From: Micrasema longulum
Lineage: Eukaryota > Arthropoda > Insecta > Trichoptera > Brachycentridae
Direction: 5' to 3'
Length of the DNA stretch: 64,000 nt
Assembly: GCA_022494885.1 (NCBI GenBank)
Contig: JAGVSM010004887.1
Span: 1 to 64,000 of the forward strand
Shown: piece after piece, positions 27,271 to 60,700 of the stretch
Position numbering within the stretch: the first letter of the stretch is position 1
How the letters are laid out: each line of letters starts with the position of its first letter
Position numbers and translations under genes: made by a program
The notes under the pieces: generated by a model
What the model was told of the DNA's origin: nothing
The model's input: only the letters and a program-made list of their open reading frames with translations
Database searches by the model: none

Positions 27271-27945
27271 AAATTATTATGAAAATTAAAACTTTGTTAT
27301 TAGTGTTACACAATTTATTATTTTACAAGAACACAACTATAGTTTCGGGAGAGCACTCATTTCATAATCACACCCTAAAACTCCTGCACCAAGTTATTAA
27401 CAAAGGCAGTAATATGAATGATTTAGAAATAATAGAAATCCAAAAAAATTTAAATTCTGAGAACAACCGAATTAATAATCACACATTTAACCACCTCTCG
27501 CCTTTATTGAATATGTTCCCTTTGCGACCCCCCTCACCCCACTCACCCCCGTAGACTCGCGTTTGTTAACACTCTCTTAGCCGAGCGATGTCTTCCCACA
27601 CATTAAATCTTACTTCCACTTATGTGCTAAATTTTAAGAAATACATTTGACTTAATGTCCTGTCCCTCATTGATCATATTTTCATATCTGTACTTTAGAT
27701 AACTATCCATTCATATGCTAACACCTTAGATAAGGGAGGAAAAAAACCCTCCTGCTCTAAGTTTCACTGATTAATTTGTTTATTTTTTGTTTAAATTCGA
27801 TGACATTGTGAACAATATTCTGTGTTTACTATATTAGTTTTATATCACCCGTCGATGGGAGGAGTGCTCTCCCGAAACTACAGTTGTGTTCTTGTAAAAT
27901 AATAAATTGTGTAACACCAATAACATTTTATTTTCATAATAATTT
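27271..27945. mobile_element. Ribozyme-like fold-back element (type 5)
   Basis: Inverted arms about 85 bp long (27271-27357 and 27864-27945) enclose about 500 bp. Each arm holds CTCTCCCGAAACTA-AGTTGTGTTC (one arm inverted). Only the right arm retains the 5' half of the ribozyme-like motif. The interior has no recognised gene. Confidence 0.65.
27846..27888 (+). ncRNA. Hammerhead-like motif, core mutated (type 5)
   Basis: Stem I CAC/GTG; core reads CCGTCGA where CTGACGA is expected; bulged T; stem II GGGAG/CTCCC; GAA; stem III AC-TACA-GT; cleavage-site nucleotide T. Architecture kept, two catalytic-core bases changed, so probably inactive. Confidence 0.45.
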
Positions 27946-28174
27946 AAAGAAACTTTATTTTATGTTTTGTTGACAATAGTTAATAACATACAGAAAATTA
28001 AACTCTAAGCGAGTATAACTGCACGGTGTACGTCTCAAATAATATATGCAAAAAGGAGTATGGACGTACGTTGTACGGCGTCGCTTGTCAAAAATCTTTC
28101 ATTGAATTTATTCATAAAAAGGACGTGGCAATGCCATCTATGGGTGATTGGTGTGAATATTTCCAAGAAAAAAT

Positions 28175-28340
28175 CCTACTTGGTACATTCGTAGCATAAT
28201 GGCTAAGACACCTCGCACATGATTCCATGCCATTCCCGATAAGATCGCAATAATTGAATCTGTCATTTTTAAGCCTGGGTGTTATGTGCTGTAATTATAT
28301 ATTCATTATTAATAACTGTAATATATCATCGGTGAAACTG
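28175..28340 (+). mobile_element. tRNA-derived SINE (family 2), degraded
   Basis: GTAGCATAATGGCTAAGAC head (A-box side) and AAGCCTGGGTGTTATGTGCT body, as in the SINE at 3846. Confidence 0.5.
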
Positions 28341-29877
28341 TAATACCGAGTAACTACCAATAGATTTTTCAGGCAGGGGATCTTAAAAAGCGTTTTGTTA
28401 ATATATTACGATTTTAACCAACCAAAAATACTGCTGAAGTATCAGAAAAACTATAATTATTTAGAGTAAAAACAGCAACAACGTAAAACTAATGACTCCT
28501 TAGTCCCTATAACAAATTTATTTCAGTAAAAAAATAACAGGTTACGCGGTATTGCAGTATCACTGATGATATATGGTGGAAGAAAAAAATTGTAACCCCA
28601 ATTTAAAAATAAAATAAAAGTCAGTCACAAAAAATTAGACCCAATGGTGAAATGTTGTATTGTTTGTCAAACTACACAATTATTATTACATAGTTTTAGA
28701 GTTAATCAATATTTTCAATGTTTTTAAAAAAAATATCTATATAGATGCAATAACAGATTATAAGCGATACTTTCACAAATATAAACATACAAAATAAAAT
28801 ATTAGCAGACCAATAATCTTCTATCTGACCACAGCATTTATTTACGGGCTCATTCAGTCCATTTACTTACAATAAAATACAATTATTGTTTTTATATACA
28901 GGTATGATTAAAATAAAATACATCTAGCACAAAAGTTTTACATACATGGGAACAAAATAAATGGATCAATGTACACGTGGATATGGTATTAAGGTATCTT
29001 AAGTATTAATAAATTATCAAATTAAATAATTTGACTAATTAAGATATTTTGGTGATGCACATTTTTGCTATAAAAGGAAGCTTCCTCTGAGCTTTCTTTC
29101 AGTAACATGAGTAGATTGCAATACCACATTCATAGAGGAAAAGAATACATAAGCAAATATGGATTTCTCCAAACATTCCCGGTATGAAATTTGAAAAGGT
29201 ACAACCACAGATTTTCGTAATCAGCAGCATTTGTAATCCGTTAAGTAAAGATATTTCAGAAATCTATTCCGAACCATCCAGCATAACAGAGTACTTCAAC
29301 TCGTGGGGCGCCCGGATCAGAGATCCACGCTCGAGTCTGCTTCGCACCAAAGAGTTATAAAGAAGCCGAAGGACACCATAGCTGTTCGGAGAACAAATCT
29401 TAACATTATGTGAGCATGAAATTTCAGTTCAGCTTCAAACAGACCTCCCTGGTCTTTGACAGCGATAGTTCACTTGGGTGAACACTCACACTTATAAAGT
29501 ATTGCAAATAACGTATGCGGGGAGGGTATGATGATAAGAAAAAAACAAGAATGGAATGTATTACACTGGGGACAAATTTTTAACACAATATCTTCGATTT
29601 TTCAGCAAAGTAAAAGAGGCACGCTGATTTAAAAACTGTATTTGGTTTTCTTCTATCACTTCAAGTTTTTTCTCTACAGGTTATCTTAATGTGAAAGTTT
29701 TAGCTAAAATATGTTCGGTAAAAAAACTTTACTATTTGTGTGAACACAATTTGACTTACAGTACAACTTATGTAATAATAATAATAATAATTATTAACCA
29801 TAATATATACTATGAAAAATAAATAGAAAAAAAATATTTATAATTATATTTAAAGCATTAACTTTGTGGTCAAACAT
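28341..29877. other. Intergenic; family D copy at 29085-29215
   Basis: AT-rich. The repeat D blocks (ATAGAGGAAAAGAATACATA, CATTCCCGGTATGAAA, TACAACCACAG) are the only recognised item. Confidence 0.4.
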
Positions 29878-29927
29878 TTTACTAAATGTTATTAAATATT
29901 TGTATATAACCACTTACCGACTTTTCT

Positions 29928-29971
29928 ATATCTACCGGTTTCGAGACGTACCCGTCTCTTCGTCAGGACAC
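29928..29971 (-). ncRNA. Hammerhead-like ribozyme motif, left arm (type 4)
   Basis: Minus strand, 44 nt: stem I GTGTC with GATAT (two wobbles); core CTGACGA; bulged A; stem II GAGACG-GGTA-CGTCTC; GAA; stem III AC-CG-GT; cleavage nucleotide A. All hammerhead core bases are present. Confidence 0.65.
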
Positions 29972-30272
29972 TAATTAAACCAACATGCAAAACCCACTAT
30001 ACACCTTCACCATAGTCGTTGCACAAAAATATAAAACCAACACGACATGCATTTTAATAAGCACATGCACTGATCAGGACGAAAATACACAGATTAGATT
30101 ATGAAAATATTTTATGTTGTTTGAGAAATAGTAAAATAAAAAAAGGAGAGGGGATGGAAAGAGGAGCTTGAGTTTAATAGGTTTAGGGTGACCATTACAA
30201 TGGGACATTATTTTTTAAAGCTTTCCTAATGTGAAATATTTCCATGTTATTTACTTTTAACCCTTTATCATT

Positions 30273-31410
30273 TGTACTACTACTACTACTACCATCACGC
30301 CATTTCCCCGTAGGGGTAGGCAGAGAGAATGGACCGCCACACACGTCTATCCTGGCATACAATCCTAGCCTCTTCCACATTCATACATCTTGTCATACAT
30401 GCCCTTCGGTTCTGTCTGCTTTTGACATGACCAGACTTAAGATTTTGGTTTATCTGATCATGCCACGTCTTCCTTGGTCGTCCTCGTCTCACGTTACCGT
30501 TCATTTTCGCCATATATACTTGTTTTTACCATTCTTTCGTCGTCCATTCGTTCTACGTGACCAAACCATCTCAGAGACCCTTTCTTAATCTTATCAATTA
30601 TACTTGACTCAGATTTACACTCTCGCCTGATTTCATCATTCGTAACCCTGTCATACATTGATTTCCCACACATTCGTCTAAGAGATCGCATTTCAACCGC
30701 GTTCACTCGGCTTTCATCCTTCCTCTGCCAGTTCCATGTTTCACTTCCATACATAAGTGTTGGGACTAAAACTCCGTTGTGCACTGCCAGTTTAGCTTCG
30801 ATTGACATATTTTTATTAGAAATTACTGCGCTTAGTGCTCCGTTCATTTTGTTGCCCGGATTCACTCTTCTTTCAACATCTTTTTCTACTCTTCCATCTC
30901 TTGAAAACATGCTTCCAGATACACAAATTCTTCTACTTGCTCGAGACATTAGTTGTTTACATTTATTACGCATTATTTACATTTGCGGTCGCAGGCCCTA
31001 CGGCACGGAATGCTCTCCGAGCAGAAATCTGAAACTGTGAGAGTGAAGTGATATTTCGGAAGAAACTTAAAACCCACTTATTCTCTAAATCATTTGAATA
31101 AATTCTTAGCATGTGGTGGAAAAGTAATATGAAAAAGTACATTATTTTTCTTAAATTAAAAAGTTAAAATTAAATTCATATCTTTATATAATCACTTTGT
31201 AAAGCGCTCTTGAGGTATTATATTACGAAAATGGCGCTATATAAATTATCCATAATTATTATTATTGTTTACGCAGTCAGCAACCTCACTATCCCTTTCA
31301 AATATCATCACTTTTGACTTACTTTCGTTCATCGCCAATTCGCTCTCCAGGCATACATCATACATTCTAGAGACTATTTGCTGCAAATCAGCGTAAGATT
31401 TTAACTCCTG
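30273..31410 (-). mobile_element. RTE-like LINE fragment, split by a CR1/L2 tail
   Basis: Minus strand: RT region LQQIVSRMYDVCLESELAMN and ESKSKVMIFERDSE (31400-31265), interrupted at 30974-31270. It resumes RICVSGSMFSRDGRVEKDVE, MYGSETWNWQRKDESRVNAV, SLRWFGHVERMDDERMV (one frameshift near 30500), [20 protein letters not shown], and ends in a GTAGTAGTAGT tail. The longest RTE piece here. Confidence 0.85.
30974..31270 (+). mobile_element. CR1/L2-like LINE 3' end nested in the RTE
   Basis: Encodes FAVAGPTARNAL-like RT C-terminus and the stop region, then the tail AAAGCGCTCTTGAGG and ATGGCGCTATATAAATTATC with an ATT repeat. Flanked by similar TTACGCA on both sides (probable target duplication). 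Confidence 0.8.
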
Positions 31411-31455
31411 TATTTTTAAGTAATTTGGTTGGTTTATTATCAGTTGGTTTAATTA

Positions 31456-31499
31456 GTGTCCTGACGAAGAGACGGGTACGTCTCGAAACCGGTAGACAT
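31456..31499 (+). ncRNA. Hammerhead-like ribozyme motif, right arm (type 4)
   Basis: Plus strand: stem I GTGTC (31456) with GACAT (31495); core CTGACGA 31461-31467; bulged A 31468; stem II GAGACG/CGTCTC; GAA 31485-31487; ACCGGT 31488-31493; cleavage predicted after A31494. Stem I differs from the left arm by one base, replacing a wobble with a Watson-Crick pair. Confidence 0.68.
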
Positions 31500-31796
31500 A
31501 GTCAAGTCGGTAAGTGGTTATTTACAAATATTTAATAACATTTAGTAAATAAATATTTATTCTTAAATAAAACAAAGGTATACACAGTTAAATGGAGGAA
31601 TTGTTGCCACTACCAATTTCTTATAGTCTGACCAAAAAACAAACAAAAAAAATACAGTGATGAAAAAAGTTTAAAAAAAAAAAGTAATATTGTAAATTAA
31701 TAAGTTAGGAAAATGATCAACTTTGAACGGTACATTAGATAATTTTTTCCTTTGTATGCACATTTTGGGATAAAGAGAGGATATACTGTAACTTGA

Positions 31797-32425
31797 AAGA
31801 CGTAAGGGATGTTAGACGTTTACTAGGGATGGAATGACTGAGAAAGATGTTGAAAGGAGGGTGAGTGTCGGGAACAGAGTGAACGGCGCACTTAAATCAA
31901 CCTTGGCAAATAAATGTTTGTCCCAATAGGCAAAATTAGCAGTTCACAACGGAGTCCTGGTCCCGATCCTGATGTATGGGAGCGAGGTATGGACTTGGAA
32001 AAACAGGGATGAAAGTAGGCTGAGTGCTGTCGAAATGCGATCTCTTAGGCGAATGTGTGGTAAAACTATGTACGATAGATGCACAGATGTTGAGATCCGT
32101 ACCTCATGTAAGGCCGAGATAAGCATTATCGACAAAATCAAGAAAGGAGCTCTGCGCTGGTTTGGACATGCGGAGCAAATAGACAGCGAAAGAACGGCTA
32201 AGAATATTGACAATGCGAATGTTGATGGATGCAGAAATAGAGAAAGACCAAGAAAGACACTTGAAGATGGACATGTCAAAAGTCGGAATAATCGGCGTGC
32301 GTGCATGAGAAGATGTATAAATGTAGAGGAAGCGAGATCTGTATGCAAAGATAATGTGATGTGGCGTTCTATTTTCTCTGCCTACCCTTACGGGTAAACG
32401 ACGTGATGGTTTGTTTGTTTTTGAA
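31797..32425 (+). mobile_element. RTE-like LINE 3' fragment, GTTT tail
   Basis: [59 protein letters not shown], then WRSIFSAYPYG and a GTTTGTTTG tail. Lies 110 bp beyond the Vps45 stop codon, so it may be transcribed in the Vps45 3' UTR. Confidence 0.85.
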
Positions 32426-32533
32426 AGACGTAGAAAAAAACTGGGGACATTTTTTAATTCAGATGCCAAAAGTTAGTCACAAACAAGTGTCAGATCTGAG
32501 TCAATGAAATTCGCGTCCCCCCAGTGTTATTTA

Positions 32534-32875
32534 TCAGACGTTTCTTATGTTCCTCGTGTGAGTGCGAGGGAGGCCTTGCGTGGCCGCGCCGATGTCTTCC
32601 AAGAAGGTCGCCGAGTTGTGCACCGTGGTGCCCCCGAGCACTACGCGGACCCCCGAGTTGGACTGGTTGATGTTGTGGACGCAGAGCGCCTCCTCGTATG
32701 TGGCGCCGCCGACCATGAACACGACGATGTCCTGGTAGCGACGGCTGGGGTAGGCGTCGTCGCTGCCCATGCACGGATACGCGGAGTCGCGGATCTTGCC
32801 CTTGATGATGTCGTCGAGGGTCTCCGCTATGAGCGGCTTGTGCTGCGTGTAGATGTTCTCCACTCCGCTGAGACC
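32534..32875 (-). CDS. Vps45: Vps45 exon 9 (stop codon)
   Basis: Acceptor CTCTCCAG. 113 codons and [61 protein letters not shown], ending THTRNIRNV. The extreme C-terminus is short and divergent, as is common in this family. Confidence 0.95.
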   Translation of the reverse strand, partial: GLSGVENIYTQHKPLIAETLDDIIKGKIRDSAYPCMGSDDAYPSRRYQDIVVFMVGGATYEEALCVHNINQSNSGVRVVLGGTTVHNSATFLEDIGAATQGLPRTHTRNIRNV

Positions 32876-35800: not shown

Positions 35801-38800
35801 GTAACTTGTTAATTTTAATAAATTTTATACCTGTAGTTGTTTGGCATGCTCGTTCTGGCAAGCCAGTTCCTGCTCCAACTCGGAGACTTGCAGTAGACTG
35901 TGGCGGCCCACCAATGCTGACATCTCTTCTACTACCGTCACATGCTTGGATACGGTACCCGACATTTTCTATTAAAAAAACATACATTAATGTTGTATAT
36001 TTGACATATTTATGTTTTTATTTATGAATATGATATGTACAGTAAAACCTCTGTTTTACGTTTTTCAAGGGAGCAACAAAAAAATGTGTAAAACTAAGGA
36101 AAACTCTAAAGTGAGGAAATTCAAAATGTATGAAAAAAATTAAATTACATAAAAATATAATTATTGTAATAGACTATACTAAATATACTGCGGAAAAATT
36201 GTAAGAACTGTCATAATTGGGGATTATTCATATTTACCAATGATTTAATTGCAAATATTTTGTATTTTTTCAAGCAATACTACAATGTGCTATTTTTTAT
36301 TGAATTAAAAAAAAAAACATGTTTGAATCATTTAATGTAGATACTTAACCTTAAAAACATAAGACTTTTTACCTAAATATTGGGAAATTTTATTTATATG
36401 GTATCACAGAATTTCAACTGTCATTTACATTGCGGCAAAACTGTTTCACACTTTTATAATAACTGCGTAAACTATCTTCTTTTCACATTGTGTTTAATTT
36501 TTAGTTTAAAAAAATCGGGTTGTGGTCTCGTGGCATGTGGACTCACGGATCATAGGTCCGAGGTTCGAACCCCACTCTACCCCAACTTGATTTCCATTTT
36601 CTAAAAGTGAGTTATTTACAACTCGTCGAAAATGGCCACCAAAATTGAAATATTTGGGTAAATTAGAAGAACGCTAATATTTCTTAAAAAAAAAAAAGTC
36701 TCATAACTTCAAATAATATTTCTATTGACAATTTATTTAACTCTCTGCATAATAATTTATTGATGTGACATTAAAAATGTGTCAGCTGCATGTCACTATT
36801 TAGTAAAATGTCAAAATTAGACACGTAAACAAAATGGTCAATTACACTGCACCTACTTTGAATTTAGTTTGAGACAATAATTTACACATTTCTTTATTTA
36901 CCTCAATTTTATTCTACATTCACGCGGCGGCGCGCGGCTCGTTGTCTTTTGACAGATCGAATGAGTTTTGAAAAATTTTCAACGTAAAACCGGGGTTATG
37001 AAAAATGTAAAAAACATTGATTTTAATGAGAATGTATGGAAAAAAATGGGACCTAAATATTTCGGTGTGAAAAGTGGGAAAACGCAAAATCAAGGAACGT
37101 AAAAACGAGGTTTTACTGTACAAGCTACAGATATGGAACCCCTATTATATATCAACTTGTTGGAAAGAGTTCAAAGACGAGGTACAAAGTTGTCGCCAGC
37201 CTGAAACGACTTCCTTATGTGGAGAGAGAGGGGTGACTTGATAGAGATACGAGATACTCAACAGTCACTATAGCTGCCCAAATTTGGATCCCAGTTCAAG
37301 CTTAAACAAGATGCTCGACTTCGAGGCCGCAGTCTCGGGCTGGAGAAAACCAGATCCAATCTAAAACACTATCATATTGAAAAAGCAAAGACAAACACAG
37401 GACAGTCAAAAATACTACATAATGGACTTAAACACTACAACGACCTACCTTACTACTTGAAAACTTTTAATGGAGACAAATTTAAAATCAATCTGAAAAA
37501 GCACACGATGACTGAACTAACTAGACTAGACGAGACATAAAATGACTTGACAGTATTAAATTTCTAATGTAACCCTAACGGGTTTTTTAAAATTGTAAAT
37601 AAATAAAAAAAAAATCCACGGAAACCTTTCTTGAGACATAAAGTTGTTGATATAATTGATTTATTTGGTGTTTATTTTGTAGAACTAGAAATATTTAAAC
37701 ATAGGAAATTTATTTAAACATAAATGTATTATTATCTGTTTATATAAATTTCCTCATAATATTTCAATCATGTTTTAAAATTAAATTGAACAGCAACCTA
37801 TTATAATATTATTGATATTTTTTCGACAGCAATTATCTAAATTTACAAAACTATAAAGTATTATTGTTATCAAAAACATTTTTCACTTTGTGGTATGACA
37901 TTTTACACTTCTTTGTTTATAAATTTGTATAAACCACTCTAATTTTTTTATTACACTTCGACCGGTTTAGAGGTCAGAAATTTCAGAAATCGTCAGAAAT
38001 TTAACTAACTTATAATTACACGCGTTGCTATTTATATAATAAAATATTGTATGAAAGAGACAGAAAATTGAAAGAAAGAGAGAGAAAGAAGATAAAATAA
38101 ATACCGTTAAGATTTATTTTATCTTCTTTCTCTCTCTTTCTTTCAATTTTCTGTCTCTTTCATACAATATTTTATAATATAAATAGCAACGCGTGTAATT
38201 ATAAGTTAGTTAAATTCCTGACCATGAGGTAGTAACCTCGAAACCGGTCGAAGTGTAGTAAAAAAATTAAAGTGGTTTATACAAATTTATAAACAAATAA
38301 GTGTAAAACTATAAAGCTTCATTAATTATCTCACAATACATACATGTACAATGTCAATAAATATTTACTTTGTTATATTTTTCCCGAAATTCAAATATAA
38401 ATACCTAAATTTCCCATTACCTATTAAACACTTAGCCTCGCCCTTAACCATTGGTTTTTCCCTCAATTATGATTAATGTACATGCTATGGTTCGTAAGAT
38501 TATTTTTATTTTCTGCTTAAGTACCTTGAATTATATAACTACATAAGGACATTCAATCCATTCGTTTGAAAATGCCCTAATAAGGCGAAACAGTTGTCAC
38601 AAAGTTTTTATTTTTATAAAAATAAAATAAAGTGTTCAGTAGACTCAAATCAGTGTTTGATTTCTAATATTATAAGTTGTTGATATAAGTTTAAAAATGG
38701 ACTAGATTTGGTTTTGGAAAGGTTAAAGTGTGTCAGCAACCTACTTTTGTTAAAAAGATTTAAGCATATCAGCTTTAAGCTGATTGCTAAAAATAAAAAT

Positions 38801-44800: not shown

Positions 44801-47800
44801 CCAACTACTGTTTCAAAATTATGACAGAAATGGTTGACTGTACAGAGCTGCTTGGTTTAATAACAATACATGAGCCAGCCAGGATTTGTAGACGGTACCA
44901 CCTGTTTCATGTACCAATAAGTAAAACATCGTATGTTAAAAATGCTTTTTTTCGTAGGACTTTTTCAATGTACAATACAAAATTTAAAAATATAGATTAC
45001 ACAAACATCACTCTGTCAGATTTAAAATTTACACTAAAAATGTATTATGTAACTTAGTAGACATTATAATAATAAATATGTACATCTCCCCTCCCCTCCT
45101 TATCCTCTCTTCAAGCATTTTTGTCCTTATCCCGCCCAATTTACAGTAACTTAATGTTCTTAAAATAAATATTCAAAAAATCTTTGATTATTGAGTACAT
45201 GAAAATAACATTTTTATATGTATAAATTGTATGTATTTATTTGATATGTATATATTTTCTTTGCTAACTTTGTATACTATGTGGAAATCTGTTATTAGTT
45301 CTGAGTTTATACACTATATCTGTTTGTTTACTAAAAATATGTATGTAGAACTGTTGATTTCCCTAATAAAATAAAATAAATATGAATGAGATGGTAAATA
45401 GAGCCACAAAAACCCTAGGCTTTGTTATCAGAACAACAAGAGAGTTTACGTCTGTTGATGCATTAAACATATTGTACATGACCCTAGTGAGAAGCCAGTT
45501 AGAATATGGGTCCTCATTATGTTACTCATATAAACAGTGTGGAGAAGGTCCAACGTACGTTTTTAAGATTTATAAATTTCAAATGAAACATTCGAATTGA
45601 AGAGCTTAACTATAAATGTTTAATGAAGCAGTTAAAATTAATATGTATTAGTGATAGAAGGGAAATTTCAGATGTAGTGCTGCTTTTCAAGTTATTAAAT
45701 AATGTTCTTGACAGTCCCGAACTTTTAAATTGTGTGAATTTTTGTGTGAGACAGCGTGGGACGAGACAAAATACTTCTTTCACTGTTGATTTGCATAGTT
45801 CAGACTATGCTAAATACTCACCTATTCCACGGTTCCACATGTTAGCAAACAAACATGGAAACATAGATTTATTTCATTTGTCTTTAAACCAACTAAAATC
45901 ATTACTTTTTAATCACTTCTTTTCGAAATTATAAAAATGTACTAAGTGTTATACTTGTTTTACTGTTTATGCTATGATACATCGCCTCTGTTACTTCAAT
46001 ACATTTTTATTTAAACCCTTTATTTATTGTTAATTTTCTGCATACCTATGTTATACATTCTTTTTTTTAATTTTTATTATTTCGTTATTTTCTGCTGATT
46101 TTATTTCATGTATCTATATTTTCTATACTGTGTTAAGGTGTTTTGTTTGATTATAATTGTTTGTCAATATTATTTTATACTTTGTCAAAGGCGTAAGCCG
46201 TCGAAATAAATAAATAAAATATATTTTTAAATCTGCAGTGCCCTGTAAGGGTTCTACTGATAATCATCACATGGTTTAAATTATTTTAACACTGTATGAT
46301 ATTAACCCGCATTCTCGGAGGACCACTGGTCAAACCCGAGGAAGTTGAAGAGCTCACCCCTTACCTAATAGCCCGATACTTTATGGATCTGGACTTGGAG
46401 GGAGAGACTTAACAAAGAGAGACCCCTTGTCCTCCACACAGTAGCTAGGTTCATTATATACCTGGGCTTGGAAGGTGAGAACTATTCACGGAGACCCGTC
46501 AAAATAGATCTTTACAGGTCGCAGAGATGTCAGAAGTTTGTATAGGACTGACATCTTTCAGAGAGAATGCGCTAATTGGTCAAAAAACTAAGTGGAAGTA
46601 AACCACACCTATATGAAAATGAATCTAATTACAAAATCACACGTTCAGTTTTACCTTTGTGGGGTGCAACAATATTGAAGGAGAATACGTGTGGACTAAC
46701 TGCCAGATAGTCTCCGTAGAACTCCTGAACCTCTCGAACTACTTCCTGCTCATCACACTCAGCCAGGGTCTTCACGTCCACTTTGGATATTATGTTACTA
46801 AAATCTAAAAACACAAAGCCTCAAATAAAATTTTAGACAAAAGTTTGGTTACAGGATAAATTTGCGAAAATATGGAGGAAGAATTACAAATGACTATTAT
46901 TATTATGGATAATTTATATAGCGTCATTTTTGTAATATAATACTTCAAGGGCCCTTTACAAAGTGATTCTATAGATAAATAAATTTAATTGAACTATTTG
47001 AATTTGTAATTAAAGTAAAACAATTTATTTTCTTATCACATGCTACGGGTCCTCAACAACCCTCCTACAAGGCGGTAGACAGGCGACTATAAAATACAGC
47101 GTTGTATGGGACTCATGGCCAGCGCAAAAGAGAGGTTAGGTTGCAAAAAAATAATCATATCAATGTGTCAAACAGTAAAAAATTACTTTTTCAATTTGTC
47201 AAATCTTGATCTAATGATTTTCTTCCTTATTGCTGCTCGATACAACTAACCGTAAATATTTTTTCCGTTTAATGATAATATTATCATTTCACTCTCTGAA
47301 TATTAACCTAGCCGGACCGAAGGGGGATTCGAATCCCCCATAGACGGATTTGGTCAATTTCACTTTATGCTAAAATGAACGCAAACTAACAAAAATGAAT
47401 AAAATACACGAATGAGTAAAATATGTGTATATTATTTATTGTTTCAGCATTTACTTTGTGGAAAAACATTTTGAATTTATTTAAAATAAAACACTTTGTA
47501 AATTTACCACACAAGAGTTTGATACATTAAAACACGACTAGTTTCGGGTAATCAGTATTACCCATCCTCAGGTGTAAATATAAACTAAACTAAAATACAT
47601 ACACAGATTAATACTTAGGTACTGATAGGGTCGGGTGGAAGGGTGAAGGGGGAAGGCACCTGTTATATTTACACCCGAGGATGGGTAATACTGATTACCC
47701 GAAACTAGTCGTGTTATAATGTATTAAACTCTTGTGTGGTAAATTTACAAACTGTTTTATTTGAAATAAATTCAAAATATGTGCGTGCGAAAACATGAAT

Positions 47801-49967
47801 AAATTATTGCACGTTCATAAACACTTCCAGCGTTTTATTCTCCTGATGCCATATACAAGTAGGCGCTGGGGTTGTTTGGTCCCCCCGTTCGGATCATGTG
47901 TAATTTTTGGATGTTTAGTGAGGGAAAGGTTAACAAGGATTCAATTTTAAGCCTTGATAAAGGAACAGTTGTGATTTGAAACCGGTCAGCATATTAAATT
48001 GAAGTATTGAACATGGGAAATCAAAAATCTAGTGCTTCAAATATTGATTTTTTCAATTTATGGACTGAAGTTTTTATATCCTTGTAAAAGCCATATAGGC
48101 ATTAATTCCGCCTTTCCAGTGATGCGTGGCTAGTACATATTGCATCTTATAACTTTAATATCTTTATAAATAAAATGAATTATGAGTTATGATTTTCGGT
48201 ATTCCTCTGTTATACATTTACTTATTGGTTGATTGATTTTTTTATTGAATAATTAATGCTTATTGGGAACAGAAAAAGCATTTTATCAAAAATCGGAGAT
48301 AAATCACCAATACAAATTTTGACCAATGTGTCGCATGTTGTAGAGTACGTAATAAAACAGTAATCCCAATATATAATTTAACGTAGTTATGCAGAAAGCA
48401 GCCAGCCATAGAAAAGTGAAACTGAGATAATAGCACTTTTGAGAAAAGAGTGACTAATCAAATCTGCAAAACAGTTTGAATGTTTTTGACTTTAACAAAT
48501 GATAAACAATGAATACATTAGGTTTTTTTTTAATATATTGATTTTTTCTACTGACATTTCTTGGTGGAACTGCATTTTAATTATAATAATAAAAATACTT
48601 TATAGTTTTATTCCACTTTTATTTATAATTATTTTATAAATTTTTTACCAGTGACCGGGTTTCGTCGTGACCGACATCTGACATCGACCAGTCTGACGAT
48701 GTCGGTCACGACGAAACCCGGTCACTGGTAAAAAATTTATAAAATAATTATAAATAAAAGTGGAATAAAACTATAAAGTATTTTTATTATTATAATTTTT
48801 TTTAAATATTACAAACAAGAATCTAATTATGTATTTGACCAGTTTTAATGATTTTTAAAGTACCGTAAGATTTTTCTTGTGCTGTAGGTGTTTTCTGCAA
48901 ATTGAGAATTGCAGTTTTTGTGATCGACACCATTTTTAGGAGGTGATTAATACAGTTTTTTGTATGAAAGCGGTCTGGCTGCTTTTAGCATAACATATAA
49001 TTGACCTAACTGCACTCGATAACATCAATATAATTTTTTTTCAAATTTGTGGACTGGCTGTTTTCTGCATAACTACATTCAATTGTCTCCCACACTCTTT
49101 GCTTCTTTTTTCAATACTATAGCTAAAATATTATATTTCACAAGTCACACGCGCGAACAGCAAAGTTTCTAGTACTTCTCCAAGACGCCAGTTAGTACCT
49201 CTTCGACTTTCGCCAGGGGTGGTTCTTTCGCCCACGCTGCGAGCATGAGCTAATGGTTTTTAAATGTTATCACTTTTGACTTCAACTATAAATAATTGAA
49301 GCAATTGCCTATGAATATTACATTTTTCCCATTTAAAATCTCTCATTTTTGGCATGATGAATATACAGCACAGTAATGCGCCGATGTTTTTGGGACAGTA
49401 AGGGAAAGGTTAATATTTTATTTTTAATATGTCCAAATATTTGTAGAAGAATACTGGATTTCACTTTCTAGGGAGTAAAAGATTGAAAGATATTACAATA
49501 GAGATGGGTAAATTTTTTAATATGTAAAAAAAATATGAATGAGTCAAAATAGAACTTACAAATGAAGTAAACGCCATATTTGGGGTACCTCAATTCCCTC
49601 GAGAGAAGCGCTATATTTTCAGCAGTGGGGCGAAGGAAAACAATGCACTTTAGATGTTTCAAGCCGTCTCCTTGATTCGCGGCGTCTATTCGTTCAAATA
49701 AATATACTTCTTTTTGTAAAATCTCCGATTGGCCGTACACCATACTGACAATACTAGTCTAAAAACATTAAAACTAATGTTAATAAAGCTTAGCAAATAA
49801 CACTATTTATTCATAAACCAATTTACAATTTTAATTCAAGTTAAATGGAACGGAAAATATGTTCGTAAAACTACCGTTTCTTTATCCATAAGTAATATTT
49901 TCATCCCAGGCCCACTTTCCTCTGCCATTTTTGTGATGTACATTTTTACCGCTTGTGTCACGTTCAT
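32534..49967 (-). CDS. Vps45: Vps45, complete nine-exon SM-family protein
   Basis: Exons in transcript order: 49967-49875, 49758-49560, 46804-46655, 43906-43659, 42713-42579, 39972-39832, 35968-35831, 34326-34069, 32875-32534. They sum to 1704 nt, 567 aa plus TGA, close to the roughly 570 aa usual for Vps45. All junctions keep frame with GT-AG ends. Landmarks include [14 protein letters not shown] near residue 20, [28 protein letters not shown] at 98, [30 protein letters not shown] near 215-234, [20 protein letters not shown] across 305-325, and [13 protein letters not shown] then [11 protein letters not shown] near the C-terminus. Vps45 is a Sec1/Munc18 protein that binds Tlg2/syntaxin-16-type SNAREs to drive endosome/TGN membrane fusion. 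Several introns carry LINEs, SINEs and ribozyme-like fold-backs. No internal stop or frameshift, so it should be functional. Confidence 0.97.
32876..34068 (-). other. Vps45 intron 8
   Basis: Contains a probable plus-strand LINE tail at 33420-33540 (CCCAACTCAACACAGGGCTC, similar to the inverted one at 41745-41805) and ATTTTATTT runs at 33925-33955. Nothing else recognised. Confidence 0.45.
34069..34326 (-). CDS. Vps45: Vps45 exon 8, GC-rich
   Basis: Acceptor AATTCCAG, donor AAG|GTAAGA. 86 codons, phase 0: [30 protein letters not shown], then [14 protein letters not shown]. This is the helical region of domain 3b. Confidence 0.95.
34805..35160 (-). repeat. Family A copy, inverted
   Basis: GGAACATGGAAGTCTAACCG, GACCTGTCATTGGCTGG and AACATTCACAATTCTACC; closes with TTTTGAGTTTGTCCAAATGT. 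Head-to-head with the copy that follows. Confidence 0.75.
35161..35500 (+). repeat. Family A copy 1 of a local direct duplication
   Basis: The 266 bp from 35161 to 35426 recur at 35538-35803, an offset of 377 bp, with about three differences. It continues to the family edge ACATTTGGACAAACTCAAAT. Confidence 0.85.
35538..35803 (+). repeat. Family A copy 2 of the duplication
   Basis: Near-identical to 35161-35426. Ends 26 bp from the splice donor side of Vps45 exon 7, so the duplication nearly reached coding sequence. Confidence 0.85.
35831..35968 (-). CDS. Vps45: Vps45 exon 7
   Basis: Acceptor TTAATAG, donor CAG|GTATAA. 46 codons, phase 0: [20 protein letters not shown], then [19 protein letters not shown] family A repeat copy stops 26 bp downstream of the donor, and a pogo-like element sits 71 bp upstream of the acceptor. 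Confidence 0.96.
36040..37118. mobile_element. pogo/Tigger-like DNA element, non-autonomous
   Basis: TA-flanked ends CAGTAAAACCTCTGTTTTACG-like and its complement CGTAAAAACGAGGTTTTACTG. No transposase; carries a family 3 SINE at 36510-36685 and a GC-rich patch near 36925. Confidence 0.8.
36510..36685 (+). mobile_element. tRNA-derived SINE (family 3)
   Basis: The best copy of this family: GTGGTCTCGTGGCATGTGG (A box), GAGGTTCGAACCCC (B box), then the CAACTTGATTTCCATTTTC body and a poly(A)-rich end. Confidence 0.75.
37121..37610 (+). mobile_element. Jockey/CR1-like LINE 3' end, decayed
   Basis: Frame-shifted RT C-terminus: LQIWNP-like start, [10 protein letters not shown], then a YNDLP-like stretch (CTACAACGACCTACCT). 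The tail ACCCTAACGGGTTTTTTAAA, then TGTAAATAAATAAA, is a small hairpin plus A-rich end typical of such LINEs. Confidence 0.65.
37901..38308. mobile_element. Ribozyme-like fold-back element, full palindrome (type 1)
   Basis: 408 bp that folds on itself: arms of about 200 bp meet near 38105 with almost no loop. The central part is a mirror of a GAAAGAGAGAGAAAGAAG purine run. The right arm retains a hammerhead-like motif; the left arm motif is scrambled. A deleted relative lies at 60380. Confidence 0.85.
38215..38252 (+). ncRNA. Hammerhead-like motif (type 1), one core change
   Basis: Stem I TTC/GAA; core CTGACCA (G8 changed to C); bulged T; stem II GAGG-TAGTAA-CCTC; GAA; AC-CG-GT; cleavage nucleotide C38249. 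G8 is catalytic, so this copy is probably dead. Confidence 0.5.
38876..39345. mobile_element. GC-rich non-autonomous DNA element, tentative
   Basis: Ends GGGCCTGCCACAC and GTGTGGCGGGGC form an imperfect inverted repeat around 470 bp that is far richer in GC and CpG than its flanks. Interior has direct and inverted ACTCGTC/GCGCGAG motifs. No ORF of known family. Confidence 0.45.
39832..39972 (-). CDS. Vps45: Vps45 exon 6
   Basis: Acceptor ACATTTCAG, donor AAA|GTAAGT. 47 codons, phase 0: [20 protein letters not shown] through [20 protein letters not shown], conserved in domain 3a. Confidence 0.96.
39973..40955 (-). other. Vps45 intron 5, upstream part
   Basis: AT-rich with no recognised gene; a GC-richer patch at 40085-40235 matches nothing else in the window. 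Confidence 0.4.
40960..41345 (+). repeat. Dispersed repeat family B
   Basis: TCTTCTTGCGGTGCCTTGTC, GACGTTGGCGATCACTACG and GAAAGTATCTCGGGCCTGCG recur inverted at 42770-42890. The copies also agree as peptide ([12 protein letters not shown] against [12 protein letters not shown]). Confidence 0.7.
41415..41672 (-). mobile_element. tRNA-derived SINE (family 1)
   Basis: Near-complete: GGCCTCGTGGTATAATGGTC, a mutated B box (GGTTAGATTCCCG) and a 3' end at the ATGGTGCATAGGGCACTGCA block on the plus strand. Confidence 0.85.
41690..41805 (-). mobile_element. LINE 3' tail with (TAAA)n
   Basis: Minus strand: CATCTCAACACAGGACTTTT, AGTTGGGACTTATTGTCTC, then an (AAAT)n run of seven units. Similar to 33420-33540. 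Confidence 0.6.
41900..42265 (+). mobile_element. LINE 3' tail family C with conserved hairpin
   Basis: Counterpart of 1765-2130: GTTCATTGATCAACACAG, ACAAACTATGGC, GTCGTATTGTAAACT, then the GACAAGATCTGGAC inverted repeat at 42052-42132 and a tail CGTCAATAAATAAATAAAT. Confidence 0.65.
42312..42535 (+). mobile_element. tRNA-derived SINE (family 1), well preserved
   Basis: GGCCTCGAGGTGTAATGGTC, GGTTCGATTCCCG, body to GTGCGGAAAAAGAATGATGG. Antisense to Vps45, just downstream of exon 5. Confidence 0.88.
42579..42713 (-). CDS. Vps45: Vps45 exon 5
   Basis: Acceptor TTTTCTAG, donor AAG|GTTTTT. Exactly 45 codons, phase 0: [11 protein letters not shown], then [18 protein letters not shown], a conserved Vps45 block. 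A tRNA-SINE ends about 44 bp past its donor. Confidence 0.96.
42770..42895 (-). repeat. Dispersed repeat family B
   Basis: Inverted copy of 40960: CTTCTTGCGGTGCCTTATCA, CGACGTTGGCAATCTCTACA, GCATCTCGGTCCTGCG. The remaining 42896-43550 intron shows no feature. Confidence 0.7.
43554..43595 (-). ncRNA. Hammerhead-like remnant
   Basis: Minus strand: CTGACAA (G8 changed), bulged A, GGAAC/GTTCT hairpin, GAA, ACCGTT, C. Stem I barely pairs. Similar to 47951; together they suggest another family (AAGGAACAG stem II). Confidence 0.35.
43659..43906 (-). CDS. Vps45: Vps45 exon 4, GC-rich
   Basis: Acceptor TTGTTGTAG, donor CAG|GTTAAA. It opens by completing Asp ([16 protein letters not shown]) and ends [18 protein letters not shown], the SM-family LDR-D-D--TPLL signature. 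Much higher GC than exons 1-3. Confidence 0.95.
44190..45375 (+). mobile_element. Jockey-like LINE 3' part, ORF broken
   Basis: Reverse transcriptase catalytic motif FADD in [18 protein letters not shown], then [17 protein letters not shown], a frameshift near 44430-44530, [17 protein letters not shown], and a tail ending CCTAATAAAATAAAATAAAT. 5'-truncated. Confidence 0.85.
45380..46222 (+). mobile_element. Second jockey-like LINE 3' part, tandem to the first
   Basis: [34 protein letters not shown], a break near 45600, then a C-terminal segment ending [13 protein letters not shown]. Tail GGCGTAAGCCGTCGAAATAA, then an AAATAAAT run. A different lineage from its neighbour. Confidence 0.8.
46223..46654 (-). 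other. Vps45 intron, nothing recognised
   Basis: GC moderately higher at 46310-46500, without exon or repeat that I can match. Confidence 0.35.
46655..46804 (-). CDS. Vps45: Vps45 exon 3
   Basis: Acceptor GTTTTTAG; its first two bases finish a split Tyr codon giving [16 protein letters not shown]. Donor CACAAAG|GTAAAA. Ends in a split codon after [14 protein letters not shown]. Confidence 0.95.
46897..47050 (-). mobile_element. CR1/L2-like 3' tail
   Basis: Minus strand: AGCATGTG side, AAAGGGCCCTTGAAG, then ATGACGCTATATAAATTATC and an AAT repeat; the same order as 59600-59998, shortened. Confidence 0.65.
47532..47575 (-). ncRNA. Hammerhead-like ribozyme motif, left arm (type 3)
   Basis: Minus strand, 44 nt: stem I ACAC/GTGT; core CTGAGGA (N7 = G); bulged T; stem II GGGTAA-TACTGA-TTACCC; GAA; stem III AC-TA-GT; cleavage nucleotide C. 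All core bases are consistent with the hammerhead consensus. Confidence 0.65.
47671..47714 (+). ncRNA. Hammerhead-like motif, right arm, U4 mutated (type 3)
   Basis: Same as the left arm except CCGAGGA in place of CTGAGGA. Stems I, II and III are intact, so it folds but probably does not cleave. Confidence 0.5.
47951..47990 (+). ncRNA. Hammerhead-like remnant
   Basis: CTTGATAA for the core, then AGGAACAG hairpin side, GAA, ACCGGT, C. The core is disrupted; kept because GAAACCGGTC and the AAGGAACAG side match 43554. Confidence 0.3.
48579..48797. mobile_element. Ribozyme-like fold-back element, near-perfect palindrome (type 2)
   Basis: 219 bp with arms of about 100 bp. Outer edge AATTATAATAATAAAAATAC and inner TTACCAGTGACCGGGTTTCG are mirrored. 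The right arm has a complete hammerhead-like motif; the left lacks the CTGACGA half. Confidence 0.85.
48688..48728 (+). ncRNA. Hammerhead-like ribozyme motif (type 2)
   Basis: Stem I CCAGT (48688) with ACTGG (48724), five Watson-Crick pairs; core CTGACGA 48693-48699; bulged T; stem II GTCG-GTCA-CGAC; GAA 48713-48715; stem III AC-CCG-GT; cleavage predicted after C48723. The cleanest single candidate. Confidence 0.7.
49150..49410. repeat. Dispersed repeat family E
   Basis: Inverted relative to 17260-17560: GCTGCGAGCATGAGCTAATG, ACTTTTGAC, TTGAAGCAATTGCC, TCTCATTTTTGG in the same order. Confidence 0.5.
49560..49758 (-). CDS. Vps45: Vps45 exon 2
   Basis: Acceptor TTTTTAG, donor ATTT|GTAAGT. 66 codons plus one base. 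[20 protein letters not shown], then [12 protein letters not shown] and [12 protein letters not shown] are conserved in domain 1 of Vps45. Confidence 0.96.
49875..49967 (-). CDS. Vps45: Vps45 exon 1 (start codon)
   Basis: 31 codons from ATG at 49967 ([20 protein letters not shown] onward), ending AAAGAAACG|GTAGTT. The start aligns with the conserved N-terminus of the family, and the context CAAAATGA has A at -3. Confidence 0.95.
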
Positions 49968-51705: not shown

Positions 51706-51771
51706 ATGGATTCCTTGGCGAATTACGGCAGTGACGACGAATATGAATATGAAAATTCACACCAGGATTCC
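51706..51771 (+). CDS. Exon 1 of unidentified gene
   Basis: 22 codons, MDSLANYGSDDEYEYENSHQ then DS, donor TCC|GTAAGT (consensus), phase 0. The short YGSDDE acidic start is a pattern seen at the N-termini of several splicing-related proteins; that likeness is only suggestive. Confidence 0.65.
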
Positions 51772-54700: not shown

Positions 54701-57700
54701 ATTAGAAAAGAAAGAAAGGGGCTACTGTTATTTAAATGGTAATACTAAAATATAATACATATTTAGTGGGATTGTAAAGCTATGTAACCTCCAATTTTGT
54801 AAAAAAAACATTGTAACATTCATAGATACCTACTGATTTCGAAATTTTATACACTGGGGTTTCCCAAAGTTTGTCAGCAATGGAACACTTCGCATATCCG
54901 AAAGTTTAAAAAATTAAAAATGTTATTAAAACATTTATTATTTATTTTGTAATCATAACAATTCACCTAAAAATATGAGTGAATAAAACTCTCGGTGACT
55001 CAGATAATTTTGAGTTCTTGAATCAAATCTTTTTGATATTAGGCACTTGGTGATTTGAATTCTTACATATTAGGGTATTAGAAACAAACTTATAAATCCC
55101 CACTAAACAAACAAACAACAAAAAAAAACCATTAAGCCGTTTCTCCGTAGAGGTAGGCAGAGAGGATAGAATGCCATATCACTCTATCTTTGCATACAGA
55201 CCTCGCTTCCTCTACATTCATACATCTTCTCATGCACGCACACCGATTATTCCTACTCTTGACATTTCCATCTTCAAGTACTTGATGGACTTGATCGTGC
55301 CATGTCATTCTCGGTCTTCCTCGTTTTCTGCATCCATCATCATTCGCATCGTAGATCCTTATAGCTGTTCTTTCGCTGTCCATTCGCTCTACGTGTCCAA
55401 ACCAACGCAGCACCCCTTTCTTGGTTCTGTCGATAATGCGTGTCTCAGCCTTACACAGTTCACGGATCTTGACATTTGTGCACCTATCATGCATCGTTTT
55501 ATCAGACATTCGCCTGAGGGATCGCATTTCGACAGCATTTAACCTACTTTCATCATCATTTTTCCAATTCCAGACTTCGCTCCCATACGTTAGAGTTGGC
55601 ACTAGAACTCCATTGTGAACTGCATATAAATCTTGCAAAAACAGGTTTCAATTATACTACTTTACTAGTTGACACCGTGAACTTAGCATTCTCCATTCAG
55701 TTAGTGAAGCATAATTAGAAATCTCACAATTCTTTTTTCAAAGTTTTTCGCAAATATCTCAGTAACTCCTTTAATGGAGATTATTAAGTTTGTTCTAATA
55801 CCCCCATATATCTGTTGTGGCATCGAGCCTGTTCTGCATTTTTATTTTATTTTAACATAATTAGAAAACCCCATTTTGGATAAAATAGTTGTAGGAAACA
55901 TAAGTAAAATAATGATGGCTTGTTTTGACATATTGGTTTTGACACTCTTCTATCAAATTTGTCTTGATATAATTTTATTTTTGCTACAAATTAGTCACTT
56001 ATTAAATCAATCAGATTTTCATAATCATTTGTGCTTAAGCCCTTTTTTATCTGTCAAGGAAAATAGATTCTGAACCTGGGAAAATCATCCTTACTAGTTT
56101 TGGGAAAATATTGAAAAAGAGTTGTTTTCGTATAGAATTACTCCAATTCTTGCGGAACATCTATTCAGGCTCCGCGGAATACCGGCGATCCGCAGAAAAT
56201 AGTTTGGGAAACCCTGGCATATACCTTTGCGATCTTGTGTCCACACAATGATGAATAACAAAGTGTAGAAGTAATGCTAATTTAAATTCAGTGTCACTTA
56301 AAAATTTATGCGCCAACAAATGGCAGGTATGATCTCTTTTAAGATTGATGTATGCTTAAGAGACTAGAATATTGAGCCGTTGCCGAGGGTTCCAGGCCTG
56401 ATACATTGTGCTAATTCAACGCTTTAAACATTTTGTTTTATTTGTGATGTTATTTTGGTCCAATGAAAATAAATTTGAACGATTGACAAATTGGTGTTAC
56501 CAGCCTATAAATTTTGTAGTTCCACTTTTAATATTTTCTGCTCTATTTTGACACACTTTACTTCTGGTGAGTAAAAATTATTTTGATGAATTAAAATAAA
56601 AAATGCCATTATACATGTTTAGTCATAAGATGGCTGCAATGAAACACATTTTTATAATTATGGTACTTTTATTGTATTGTATTCATAAATTTATTTATTA
56701 TGATTGCTGTAAAAAACACTACATAAACATACTTTTAATTAAAATACTTAATTTTTTCACATTTTCCTTCACAAAAAATCTTATATTTAATTGTCTACTT
56801 TAAAAAAATTCAAAGATGCATATGTAATATATTTCTGACAGCTTTTTAAATCTTGTATTTAAACTAAAATAAATTTGGACCGATTATTATTAAGTAAGAA
56901 TAATGCAGTTTTAAATTCTATTTAATTTTACGAATTAAATTAGTCATAATAATATTAAAAACCATTGCTTAAAGGATAAATAAATTCCACATGTCAATAA
57001 ATTACAGTATTATTTTGGTTGGTAATTGGAATTTTCTCTCCTGAAAGAGTATACACTCACATCTGCATTCTTTTTATATACTCTGAACACTCTGCAAGCA
57101 TAAACAATTTTAGGGTCGTAAGATAAAAATGGAGTTTGTTTCAAATCTAGTATTTCTATTTGTTGTCTATGAATAAAAAAAATGAACATTCAACTGACGT
57201 AAAAGTGGCGTTCTGTGATATTAACACGTGTGTTATTGTGACGCATATATAAACCCCCCACGACACGCCAATCCGCGGGACATTTTGACTACCAAACCTG
57301 CGTTGGGAACACGCCACCGGATATTTTCTTTATTTGTGCACGTCGCAGACACGATTGTGACGTGTTTGTGACGCACCTCCGACATCACGTGAGTACACCA
57401 TAGAGAAATGTAAAAACAATACAACTTGTATGAATTAAATATAATATAAGAGTGTGATGCAATGTCTATAAATGTTATTTTTGTATCTCAAAAAAGACAA
57501 TCTTTATAGAGGGAATATGGAAAATTAACAATTTACTAAAGCTGGTATTAGATTGTGCAATAAATGGTACTGTAAACAAAAACCGTTTTATTTACAATTT
57601 CTTTTATTTTATTTTTGTTATTTCTCCACAAGGTGTGACATTTAAGACTCCTTTTGGTATTATTCATTGCATACTGTCCACTTCACGGTATATTGTATTT

Positions 57701-60700
57701 TTTTAGATGGAATTCGCATTCGTTCACCTTGCTTATTATGTACACGGTTTATATTTCTTAAAGCGGATTTATTTTGAAGATTTTAATGTGGTTTCCTTCA
57801 CAAGAGCAAATGCTGAAAAGTTCCTTATTGGTCCACTATAGAATTTCCCTCCCGATCCCAACACTAAAAGAGAAAATAGAAGCTTCTTAAAAGCAGAAAA
57901 ATGATATATTGGTCAGGGTATCAGACTAATATACATAAGATCTGGAGAGTATTTAAATCCCTTTGTGAAATGGCTAAGATATTTATCGTATTGGGGAAAA
58001 AACACGTCGAAGAAAATCTTCTTTTAGGTTGGCATTTGATTCAGGCAGAGGGAACCTTGTCGAACTCCGGCGCTGCCCAAACACTAGGTTCGGGAGCGGC
58101 CCCTCTGTTACCGATTGTCTTCGCCCTTGCGAATTAATGGTAATTATCGACACTCCCAGTCAATTCCTATCCTAAGTAAAATGCCACTTCTCTCGTTTAT
58201 CATACAATCAAATTTGAAATCAGAAAGTCTAATATTATGTTGTGTTAGCTTAGATAGAATGTAAGTTTAAATCTAGAATTGTAAAGCACACTTGAGGTGA
58301 TTTTTCACAACACGGTGCTATATAAATCGGCCAAATACTACTAATATTATATTATCTTGGGTTTGATTCCCCCACTCAGTAAAAAAAATGCTTTTTTTTT
58401 TTTATTATAGTAATAAAAATACGTATATAGTTTAATTCCACTTTTATTTTTTTATTTTTTTACCAGGGACCGGGTTTCGTCTTGACTGACATCGTCAGAC
58501 TGGTGGGAGACTAAAATTTCTATGTTATATACAAGTGCAAGCAGGGGTAGTTAATCTAGTTTATAGTTTTAATAAAATTTAAATACATGTAATTCAAATA
58601 CATTTTCATTATAAAACTTAATAAAATTAAATAATTTTCACCAGTTTTTATTATATACATTCAAACAAAACTTAAATTCATACAATTGTTATTACTTTGT
58701 ACTTAAATTATTTTAATTTAAACTCTTATTTTTATAATTATATAAAATCATGATTTACAACCCCCGCTTGCAGTTGTATATAACATAGAAATTTGTTTAG
58801 TCTCCCACCAGTCTGATGATGTCGGTCACGTCGAAACCCGGCCACTGGTAAAATAAATTATAAATATAAGTGGAATAAACTATATACATATTTTTATTAT
58901 TATAATTAAAATGCAGTTCCACCAAGAAATGTCAGTAGAAAAACCAAATATTTTATTTGAGTTTTTTTATTTTTACTTAACTAATTTCGGCAATATGTTG
59001 CCGTCTCCACTTTCTTGTGTTTTATATGTACAAATTAACATAATGTATGTAAAATGTACGCATTGAGGATATCTCATACGCAAAAATTTGCCGGTTGATG
59101 CCGCCCGTCAATTAATAAATGCGTTTGTAGTGTCTAGAGTCGATTATTGTAATGGTATCTATGCAGGTCTACCAATGAACAAAATGACTCGCCTACAATT
59201 TGTATTGAATGCCGCAGCGAGACTTATTTTCGGAATCTCTAAGTTCAGTCATATCACTCCACTACTTCGGGAACTACACTGGCTACGTTTTCCACAGAGG
59301 GTCGAATACATACTCTGTTGGCTTATGTATAAGTTACTGCACAACTCGGCTCCGGAATGTCTAAGGGAACTATGCATTCCAGATGAACTAGCTGACGGGC
59401 GTCTCACGCTTAGATCAGCTACGTCTACGGCGAGAGGAAAAGTTATTATACCTCTACGCAAACAGCGCACTAAATTTAGTGAACGCGCATTTGCGGTCGC
59501 AGGCCCCATGGCATGGAATGCTCTCCCAGCAGAGGTGCGAGGCTGTGAAAGTGAAGTGATGTTTCTGAAAAAACTTAAAACCCACTTGTTCTCTAAATCA
59601 TTTGAATAAATCCGTAGCACGTGACAACAAAATAAATTATTTTAATTAAATTACAAATTTAAAAGCTTCAATTAAATTAACTTCCTCCTTAAAAAAATAT
59701 CCTTACCCTATTAACATAGCATCACTCCTCTCCATCCTTGATCCTGAAATTATCCACCATATAGGAAGCTTCCTCTCAAAAAATATGATAAATTTTTAGT
59801 TTTAAAAAAAAATAATGTTTTTTGATTTTTATTCCTTTAAATAAATTTTACTCTTGGCAGAAATCATCCTTCTTAGGATGGATTGCCTTATTATGAAAAA
59901 AAAAAAAAATTAACTTAACAATAGAATCACCATGTAAAGCGCCCTTGAGGTATTTTATTACGAAAATGGCGCTGTATAAGTTATCCATAATAAATAAATA
60001 TCTGAGTAGATGTGACATTTCTGTGTTTGAACCTTGTGCAATTTATTGTACTATTTATTGCACCACATTATACCAGCATTAATGAATTATTTCAATGTAA
60101 CGAAATTATTTAATGTGTCTATATTTAAATCCCTGTTATATTTGTTCAACATCGATATAAAAATATTTTAAATATTGAAAATGCCTACGTGAAATTCTGC
60201 GTACCTAAATGTTTCCTATGAAAAGTGGATTTGCGGAACTAAAGCTGACATTTTGTGGATTCAACTTGGGCGTCAGTACGCCCCCGAGTAGAACGGCCAG
60301 GGCCCCGATTATGATAGAACAAAGTTAACAAATTTATCTTTATTGTTATCAAAAACATTTTTCACTTTGTGGTGTGACATTTTACACTTATTTGTTTATA
60401 AATTTGTATAAACCACTGAATTTTTTTAATTACACTTCGAGTTAAATTCCTGACGATGAGGTAGTAACCTCGAAACCGGTCTAAGTGTAATTAAAAAAAT
60501 TAAGTGGTTTATACAAATTTTTAAACAAATAAGTGTAAATTTATCTTTAATTGTCTATATAGTAAGTGAATTTTCTGTAAAATTAAATATTTATATAATT
60601 TTTTTGATACATCTTCAATTATTGGTTACTGATTTTATTTTATGGACAGTTTTAGATAACTCTGTTAATTTGCCTTTGTAATAGGGGCCTCCGGGTGACC

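Follow-up and report, generated by a model that had tools for sequence, protein, structure and literature searches.

Seven fold-back elements carrying small motifs that resemble the hammerhead ribozyme lie in a stretch of 64,000 nucleotides from the caddisfly Micrasema longulum (contig JAGVSM010004887.1, positions 1 to 64,000), the whole of which we call the window. We take these motifs to be small, minimal type I hammerhead-like structures situated in the pseudo-long terminal repeats (pseudo-LTRs or pLTRs) of several families of Penelope-like elements (PLEs), with a probability of roughly 0.93 that concerns their identity and anatomy, not their cleavage. The elements belong to five families (A to E) and are listed here with their target-site duplications (TSDs):

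27225..27944: element E, pseudo-LTR fold-back; TSD TAAAGAAACTTTAT
29842..31550: element A, head-to-head arms, interior with an endonuclease remnant and debris like that of long interspersed nuclear elements (LINEs); TSD AAATATTTAT at 29832-29841 and 31551-31560
37859..38304: element D1, pseudo-LTR fold-back; TSD AAAACTATAAAG
47428..47773: element C, pseudo-LTR fold-back; TSD AAAATATGTG
48534..48795: element B1, near-perfect hairpin in its predicted fold, bounded by its arms; ambiguous 10 bp poly-T repeat
58407..58961: element B2, both motif copies damaged; ambiguous poly-T TSD
60343..60536: element D2, shortest fold-back; TSD AAATTTATCTTTA

The motif is present, whole or in part, in 13 of the 14 arms of these elements, and 9 of these 13 copies are damaged (judged by eye). 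All the motifs named by the first-pass annotation of this DNA are present where it had placed them:

27846..27888, + strand: family E motif, core degenerate (CCGTCGA)
29928..29971, - strand: family A motif, left arm, intact (strict descriptor)
31456..31499, + strand: family A motif, right arm, intact (strict descriptor, dimer fold)
38215..38252, + strand: family D motif of element D1, CTGACCA (G8 lost)
47532..47575, - strand: family C motif, left arm, intact (strict descriptor)
47671..47714, + strand: family C motif, right arm, core mutated to CCGAGGA (U4 lost)
48688..48728, + strand: family B motif of element B1, intact (strict descriptor)
58463..58503, - strand: family B motif of element B2, stem I and stem II pairs broken
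58808..58848, + strand: family B motif of element B2, U16.1 and one stem II pair lost
60447..60484, + strand: family D motif of element D2, core intact, first stem I pair broken

The left arms near 48663, 37974 and 27343 end inside the motif; the left arm of D2 is without it and ends 2 nt from the cleavage point.

The strict descriptor, run on both strands, consists of CTGANGA, 0-2 extra bases, a stem II of at least 4 bp, GAAA, a paired C15.2, U16.1, H17 and a stem I of at least 3 bp. It passes at four sites in the window (+ 31461, + 48693, - 47571 and - 29966) and at none across 60 windows shuffled by a first-order Markov model, which upholds the hammerhead core proposed in the annotation. 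These four arms and the genomic matches described below contain C3 U4 G5 A6 N7 G8 A9 ... G12 A13 A14, together with A15.1-U16.1 and, except that the A/D pattern leaves it free, H17. Stem II does not follow directly on A9: exactly one extra base intervenes in each of the four strict arms. This base is constant in all five families and recurs in 62 of 82 matches of a looser scan of motif loci, the remainder being mostly cases of a lost outer pair or chance matches. As had also been noted, stem III is tiny, consisting of only 2-3 bp or a palindrome; the palindromes (ACCGGT, ACTAGT) occur in families A, C and D, and that of family B is broken by one C.

The Rfam models miss the hammerhead form present here. 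Over the whole window they yield no hammerhead that reaches gathering level, and within 27-61 kb none at E<=10; the 0 matches of RF00008 over the genome come from a scan that is itself uninformative.

Two other kinds of motif were encountered. F-type motifs have a like layout (CTTGAYAAAG, hairpin, TGAAACCGGTC) and lie at 47952-47988 (+) and 43556-43590 (-) in the window and near 2082 (-) in genomic locus L024; in all three, A replaces G at core position 8, and they are possibly a related non-cleaving structure. A variant with another stem II (GGGGT/ACTCC), near 1516 (-) in locus L043, is possibly a sixth family.

Across the 584 Mb of genome searched, patterns were counted for the A/D and B forms. 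The A/D core pattern (CTGANGA-N12..30-CGAAACCGGT, with H17 left free) gives 3423 exact matches (1717 and 1706 by strand) versus 2 (0 and 2) for the reversed pattern used as control, and the family B core gives 827 (429 and 398) versus 0 (0 and 0). Chance matches in a repeat-rich, AT-rich region would be conceivable for so short a core, yet with these counts and no site in the 60 shuffled windows, their probability is negligible. The motifs are beyond chance.

Pairing is also kept between families. In stems I and II of the five families, 45 of 45 pairs hold within families. When strands are swapped across families (1936 swaps), pairing averages 50% and does not exceed 66%. Stem limits were set by eye, a choice that favours the 45/45.

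The anatomy of the fold-backs points to PLEs. TSDs are clear in five of the seven window elements, at 10 bp (A and C), 12 bp (D1), 13 bp (D2) and 14 bp (E). The stretches compared were placed by eye at arm ends, and random pairs of such stretches share at least 10 bases in 0.8% of trials. Elsewhere in the genome, exact TSDs of 10-13 bp accompany 4 of 11 arm pairs (loci L031, L032, L022 and L018). At 30 motif loci (23 of family A or its kin, 7 of family D), the arms are alike for about 60-110 nt past the motif and have either a short or a long ending (both by eye). Inner junctions vary from copy to copy. Among the 100 matches listed, 9 of 10 close A/D pairs (<3 kb) are head-to-head, one is in the same orientation and none is tail-to-tail; of the close family B pairs among 100 matches listed, all 7 are head-to-head (by eye). 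The layout of inverted pLTRs, a tail at one end and TSDs is thus found here as in PLEs.

The tails themselves resemble the start of an open reading frame (ORF). In all seven window elements, the long arm reaches 36-51 nt beyond an ATG and the short arm ends 0-7 nt ahead of that ATG (by eye), with a few bases of ambiguity at the tail boundary because the TSDs overlap the A-run. The tails, each a putative ORF start, are:

27225..27267, - strand: element E tail, MKCYEVNADPIKN (MKCYEVNADPI)
29842..29877, - strand: element A tail, ORF-start-like, MFDHKVNALNI
37859..37901, - strand: element D1 tail
47428..47469, - strand: element C tail, ORF-start-like
48534..48575, - strand: element B1 tail, ORF-start-like
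58911..58961, + strand: element B2 tail
60343..60380, - strand: element D2 tail

The family D tail peptide reads MSYHKVKN or MSHHKVKN. The predicted cut falls 55 (A), 66 (C), 77 (B1), 67 (B2), 67 (E) and 58 nt (D1) before the ATG.

A direct link to PLE proteins comes from the sequences inside and beside the arms. Remains of a PLE endonuclease or reverse transcriptase (RT) were found at E 1e-4 or better in 16 of 57 motif-derived loci, and also in the window; at L031, L032 and L034, the interior sequence codes for the C-terminal end of a PLE-like protein. In the window, one such piece lies upstream of the left-arm family A motif and is 89% identical to the L034 protein (E 3e-10):

30198..30281, - strand: 28-residue piece from close to the C-terminal end of the PLE endonuclease ORF (tblastn; residues 189-216 of the 233 in the query)

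A family A piece matches the GIY-YIG domain at 23.2 bits, against a Pfam cut-off of 22.6. Two family D copies carry the RT end plus the endonuclease, in an open frame that stops 108 nt before the motif core. A further locus has an open frame of 645 aa, and the 2 kb read on its upstream side contain an open piece whose motifs suggest that it is the beginning of a PLE RT; no family D arm or motif was seen ahead of this piece in the 2 kb read. A public homologue, P0001, joins a RKPT region and GIY-YIG to RT-like motifs. Judged from these pieces, none of which is a complete ORF, families A and D are PLEs that appear to encode an RT followed by a C-terminal GIY-YIG endonuclease. Families B, C and E are probably PLEs as well, given their layout.

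The linkage was also approached in reverse, by searching the genome with the endonuclease piece. Of 7960 candidates, 150 were scored, among them copies with long open frames (544-645 aa), and the 30 best loci were taken, all picked by protein except L060, the locus of the query itself. When up to 6 mismatches are allowed, 24 of the 30 loci have a same-strand motif no more than about 500 nt 3′ of the gene, and one has it on the opposite strand; a strict motif is found on the same strand in 12 of 30. Without L060, these same-strand figures become 24 of 29 and 11 of 29. Strands were taken from the endonuclease match table for the mismatch count, and assigned by a script, wrongly for L087, for the strict count.

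Two other kinds of mobile element share part of this anatomy. Miniature DNA transposons with terminal inverted repeats (MITEs), containing the motif by chance, would account for inverted arms, short internal parts and TSDs. A TSD length varying from 10 to 14 bp, arms of unequal reach (one ending 0-7 nt short of an ATG, the other going 36-51 nt beyond), inner junctions that differ among copies, and endonuclease and RT remains inside or beside copies of A and D speak against them, and we consider them very improbable. Metazoan retrozymes, which consist of short hammerhead repeats in tandem and spread as circular RNA, had been mentioned in the annotation alongside PLEs and would fit the type I-like hammerheads and the high copy number. 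According to PMC7229834, retrozymes are non-autonomous, arranged in tandem and equipped with canonical hammerheads, and the RNAs expressed from them measure about 170-400 nt. In place of tandem ORF-less units of this size, by which retrozymes are recognised, we find head-to-head arms that are linked to a PLE ORF, with a single same-orientation pair among 10 close ones. Retrozymes are therefore most unlikely, if marginally less so than MITEs, and we reject both together with chance. The Penelope-like lead of the annotation has instead gained from the GIY-YIG linkage of families A and D, the tails in seven of seven elements and the TSDs in five of seven.

Several results nevertheless weigh against our reading of the motifs as PLE hammerheads. 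On the anatomical side, 7 of the 11 arm pairs elsewhere in the genome have no clear exact TSD at their arm ends. A longer family A piece scores 20.8 for GIY-YIG, below the Pfam cut-off; one family D piece lies just below it (22.4), and two others give no Pfam GIY-YIG match. The RT pieces give nothing above Pfam cut-offs, the RT-start piece has one weak public homologue (E 7.8e-5), and none of the copies read has both ORF ends. In 71 of the 100 family A copies listed, we counted 52 single stem changes, 38 of them pair-breaking, and 2 double changes (1 paired, 1 broken) versus 2.4 expected. Inserted copies thus decay freely, as is expected of dead retroelement copies. The annotation had named independent mutation of the stem strands as grounds for doubting its claim; such mutation is seen in these copies, yet any dead retroelement would show it. 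Its description of a set with covarying stems is right for the families, 9 of 13 motif-bearing arms in the window being damaged.

The catalytic side meets more objections. The minimum-energy fold of the family A dimer is a double hammerhead. In the family D dimer, only stems II and III form, the dimer folds of families B and C are not double hammerheads, and in the minimum-energy folds of single A and B copies, core bases are paired instead of free. Cis dimers need tandem copies, yet just 1 of 10 close pairs is tandem; at L037, where two same-strand motifs lie 2.7 kb apart, there is no open frame >106 aa in 1000-5200. The cleavage site is not a preferred end point of the arms: 1 of 81 arm rows stops within 2 nt of it. 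The test has a coarse resolution, since overlapping loci contribute some arms to more than one row. In addition, 18 of the 81 rows end 5-17 nt downstream, several plainly from changes in A-run length where the motif continues. The idea that the arms are fossils of cut RNA used as template was set aside, as the expected pile-up of ends at the cleavage site is not seen in this test. Finally, the extra base after A9 could weaken the core.

For the window copies in particular, the head-to-head arms allow RNA that reads through both of them to fold into a long hairpin (-96.9 kcal/mol for 48620-48760) in which the motif is buried, and this counts against their activity. These copies are mostly damaged relics, and the suggestion that they are self-cleaving or recently so is not supported, given the damage in 9 of 13 motif arms, the possible burial of the motif, the independent decay of copies and arm ends that show no clustering at the cleavage site. 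For working elements, by contrast, we lean towards cleavage, as a prediction.

The motif might alternatively serve as a structural RNA signal, such as a binding site for the PLE protein or a start for reverse transcription, without cleavage in vivo. We regard this as a possible but less probable explanation. Many arms pass through the cleavage site without ending there, the three F-type motifs with A at position 8 retain the hairpin and GAAACCG, and the core contains an extra base. Likewise, in PMC11167929, a PLE hammerhead (PAc) remained uncleaved without protein, and catalytic mutants left insertion unchanged. The retention of the catalytic positions (C3, U4, G5, A6, G8, A9, G12, A13, A14 and A15.1-U16.1) where stems differ speaks against a purely structural role; it is seen in one window copy of C and wherever the patterns of A, B and D match in the genome. 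Because the patterns require these bases, that argument rests on the counts relative to controls.

Under our preferred reading as PLE hammerheads, each insertion in the window consists of a reverse-transcribed end piece and an inverted copy of it, slightly shorter, the two meeting head-to-head. The end piece comprises, in order, a bit of the ORF end or less, the motif, a short leader and what seem to be the opening codons of the following ORF. Where units stand in tandem in a working element, RNA would be cut 55-77 nt before the start codon, and the cut would set the 5′ end of the ORF-bearing RNA or separate the units. The motif would most likely act as a dimer through its palindromic stem III (ACCGGT, ACTAGT); both this use of the dimer and a part in 5′-end formation are inferred. 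A more tentative proposal, which we think doubtful, is that the motifs constitute a hammerhead sub-class of their own that requires the additional base after A9, occurs in at least five PLE families of one genome, is missed by Rfam and always cuts 55-77 nt before the ORF start. If it is true, the translated RNA owes its 5′ end to the cutting of tandem PLE transcripts. With thousands of copies, at least five families and a cut nearly fixed relative to the start codon, the role of the motif becomes testable, and the fold-back junctions provide a record of reverse-transcribed templates. The parts most worth following are the extra base in five families and the near-constant distance from cut to start codon.

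Some further features of the window were recorded. Inside D1, a near-perfect inverted repeat with arms of about 60 bp (38046-38168) has sub-threshold Rfam microRNA matches at E<=10. Such matches on the fold-backs lie under the gathering score and reflect hairpins, and were dismissed. Open frames resembling C-terminal LINE ORF remnants, none with a Pfam match, lie at 59067-59609 (+), 30494-30976 (-), 31930-32397 (+) and 55132-55647 (-), one of them nested within element A. Five tRNA matches, at 3847-3919 (+), 11583-11655 (-), 13784-13856 (-), 41597-41669 (-) and 42313-42385 (+), lie in stretches that recur at other genomic loci, which suggests a tRNA-derived short interspersed nuclear element and not tRNA genes. 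Positions 4001-8000 have 45% G+C versus a background of 31-40%, and this richer stretch includes a long alanine-proline-rich open frame (6375-6986).

Among known systems, small hammerhead variants of PLEs are said to have been described by Cervera and de la Pena in 2014 and by Lunse et al. in 2017. A viroid, CChMVd, reportedly has an extra core nucleotide next to A9; as a viroid, it is unrelated to the elements described here. A viroid hammerhead core with an extra nucleotide appears, by title, in the reference list of PMC6155905. The small hammerheads of PLEs are minimal type I motifs in pseudo-LTRs, with almost no stem III, dimers and thousands of copies (PMC7761336, PMC6466107, PMC6155905); the dimer form is reported in PMC6466107 and PMC7761336. 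Our motifs are alike in their minimal type I form, their place in pseudo-LTRs, their near-absent stem III and their thousands of copies. A possible difference is the single unpaired base that separates A9 from stem II in each of the five families here.

PAc Poseidon of Anolis is likewise a GIY-YIG PLE with a hammerhead at the pLTR-ORF junction, and its reverse transcription starts inside the template RNA (PMC11167929). Its hammerhead needed protein, was dispensable for insertion in vitro and cuts 26 nt after the start codon, compared with the 55-77 nt before the ATG predicted here (PMC11167929). In Adineta vaga Penelope elements, the pLTR takes in the first 12 aa of the ORF, a 31-bp tail stands at one end and is optional, and the inverted pLTR copy is 37 bp shorter (PMC3846280). 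Our elements share with these (Pen2a and others) the inverted pLTRs, the one-arm tail, the shorter second arm, the apparent extension of the pLTR into the ORF start and the head-to-head junctions, with TSDs of 10-14 bp versus 8-10 bp there (PMC3846280). Unlike the Adineta elements, those of Micrasema have a high copy number and are mostly end-only fold-backs. High copy numbers are known among PLEs, one family reaching 9901 copies in the monarch butterfly (PMC8848866).

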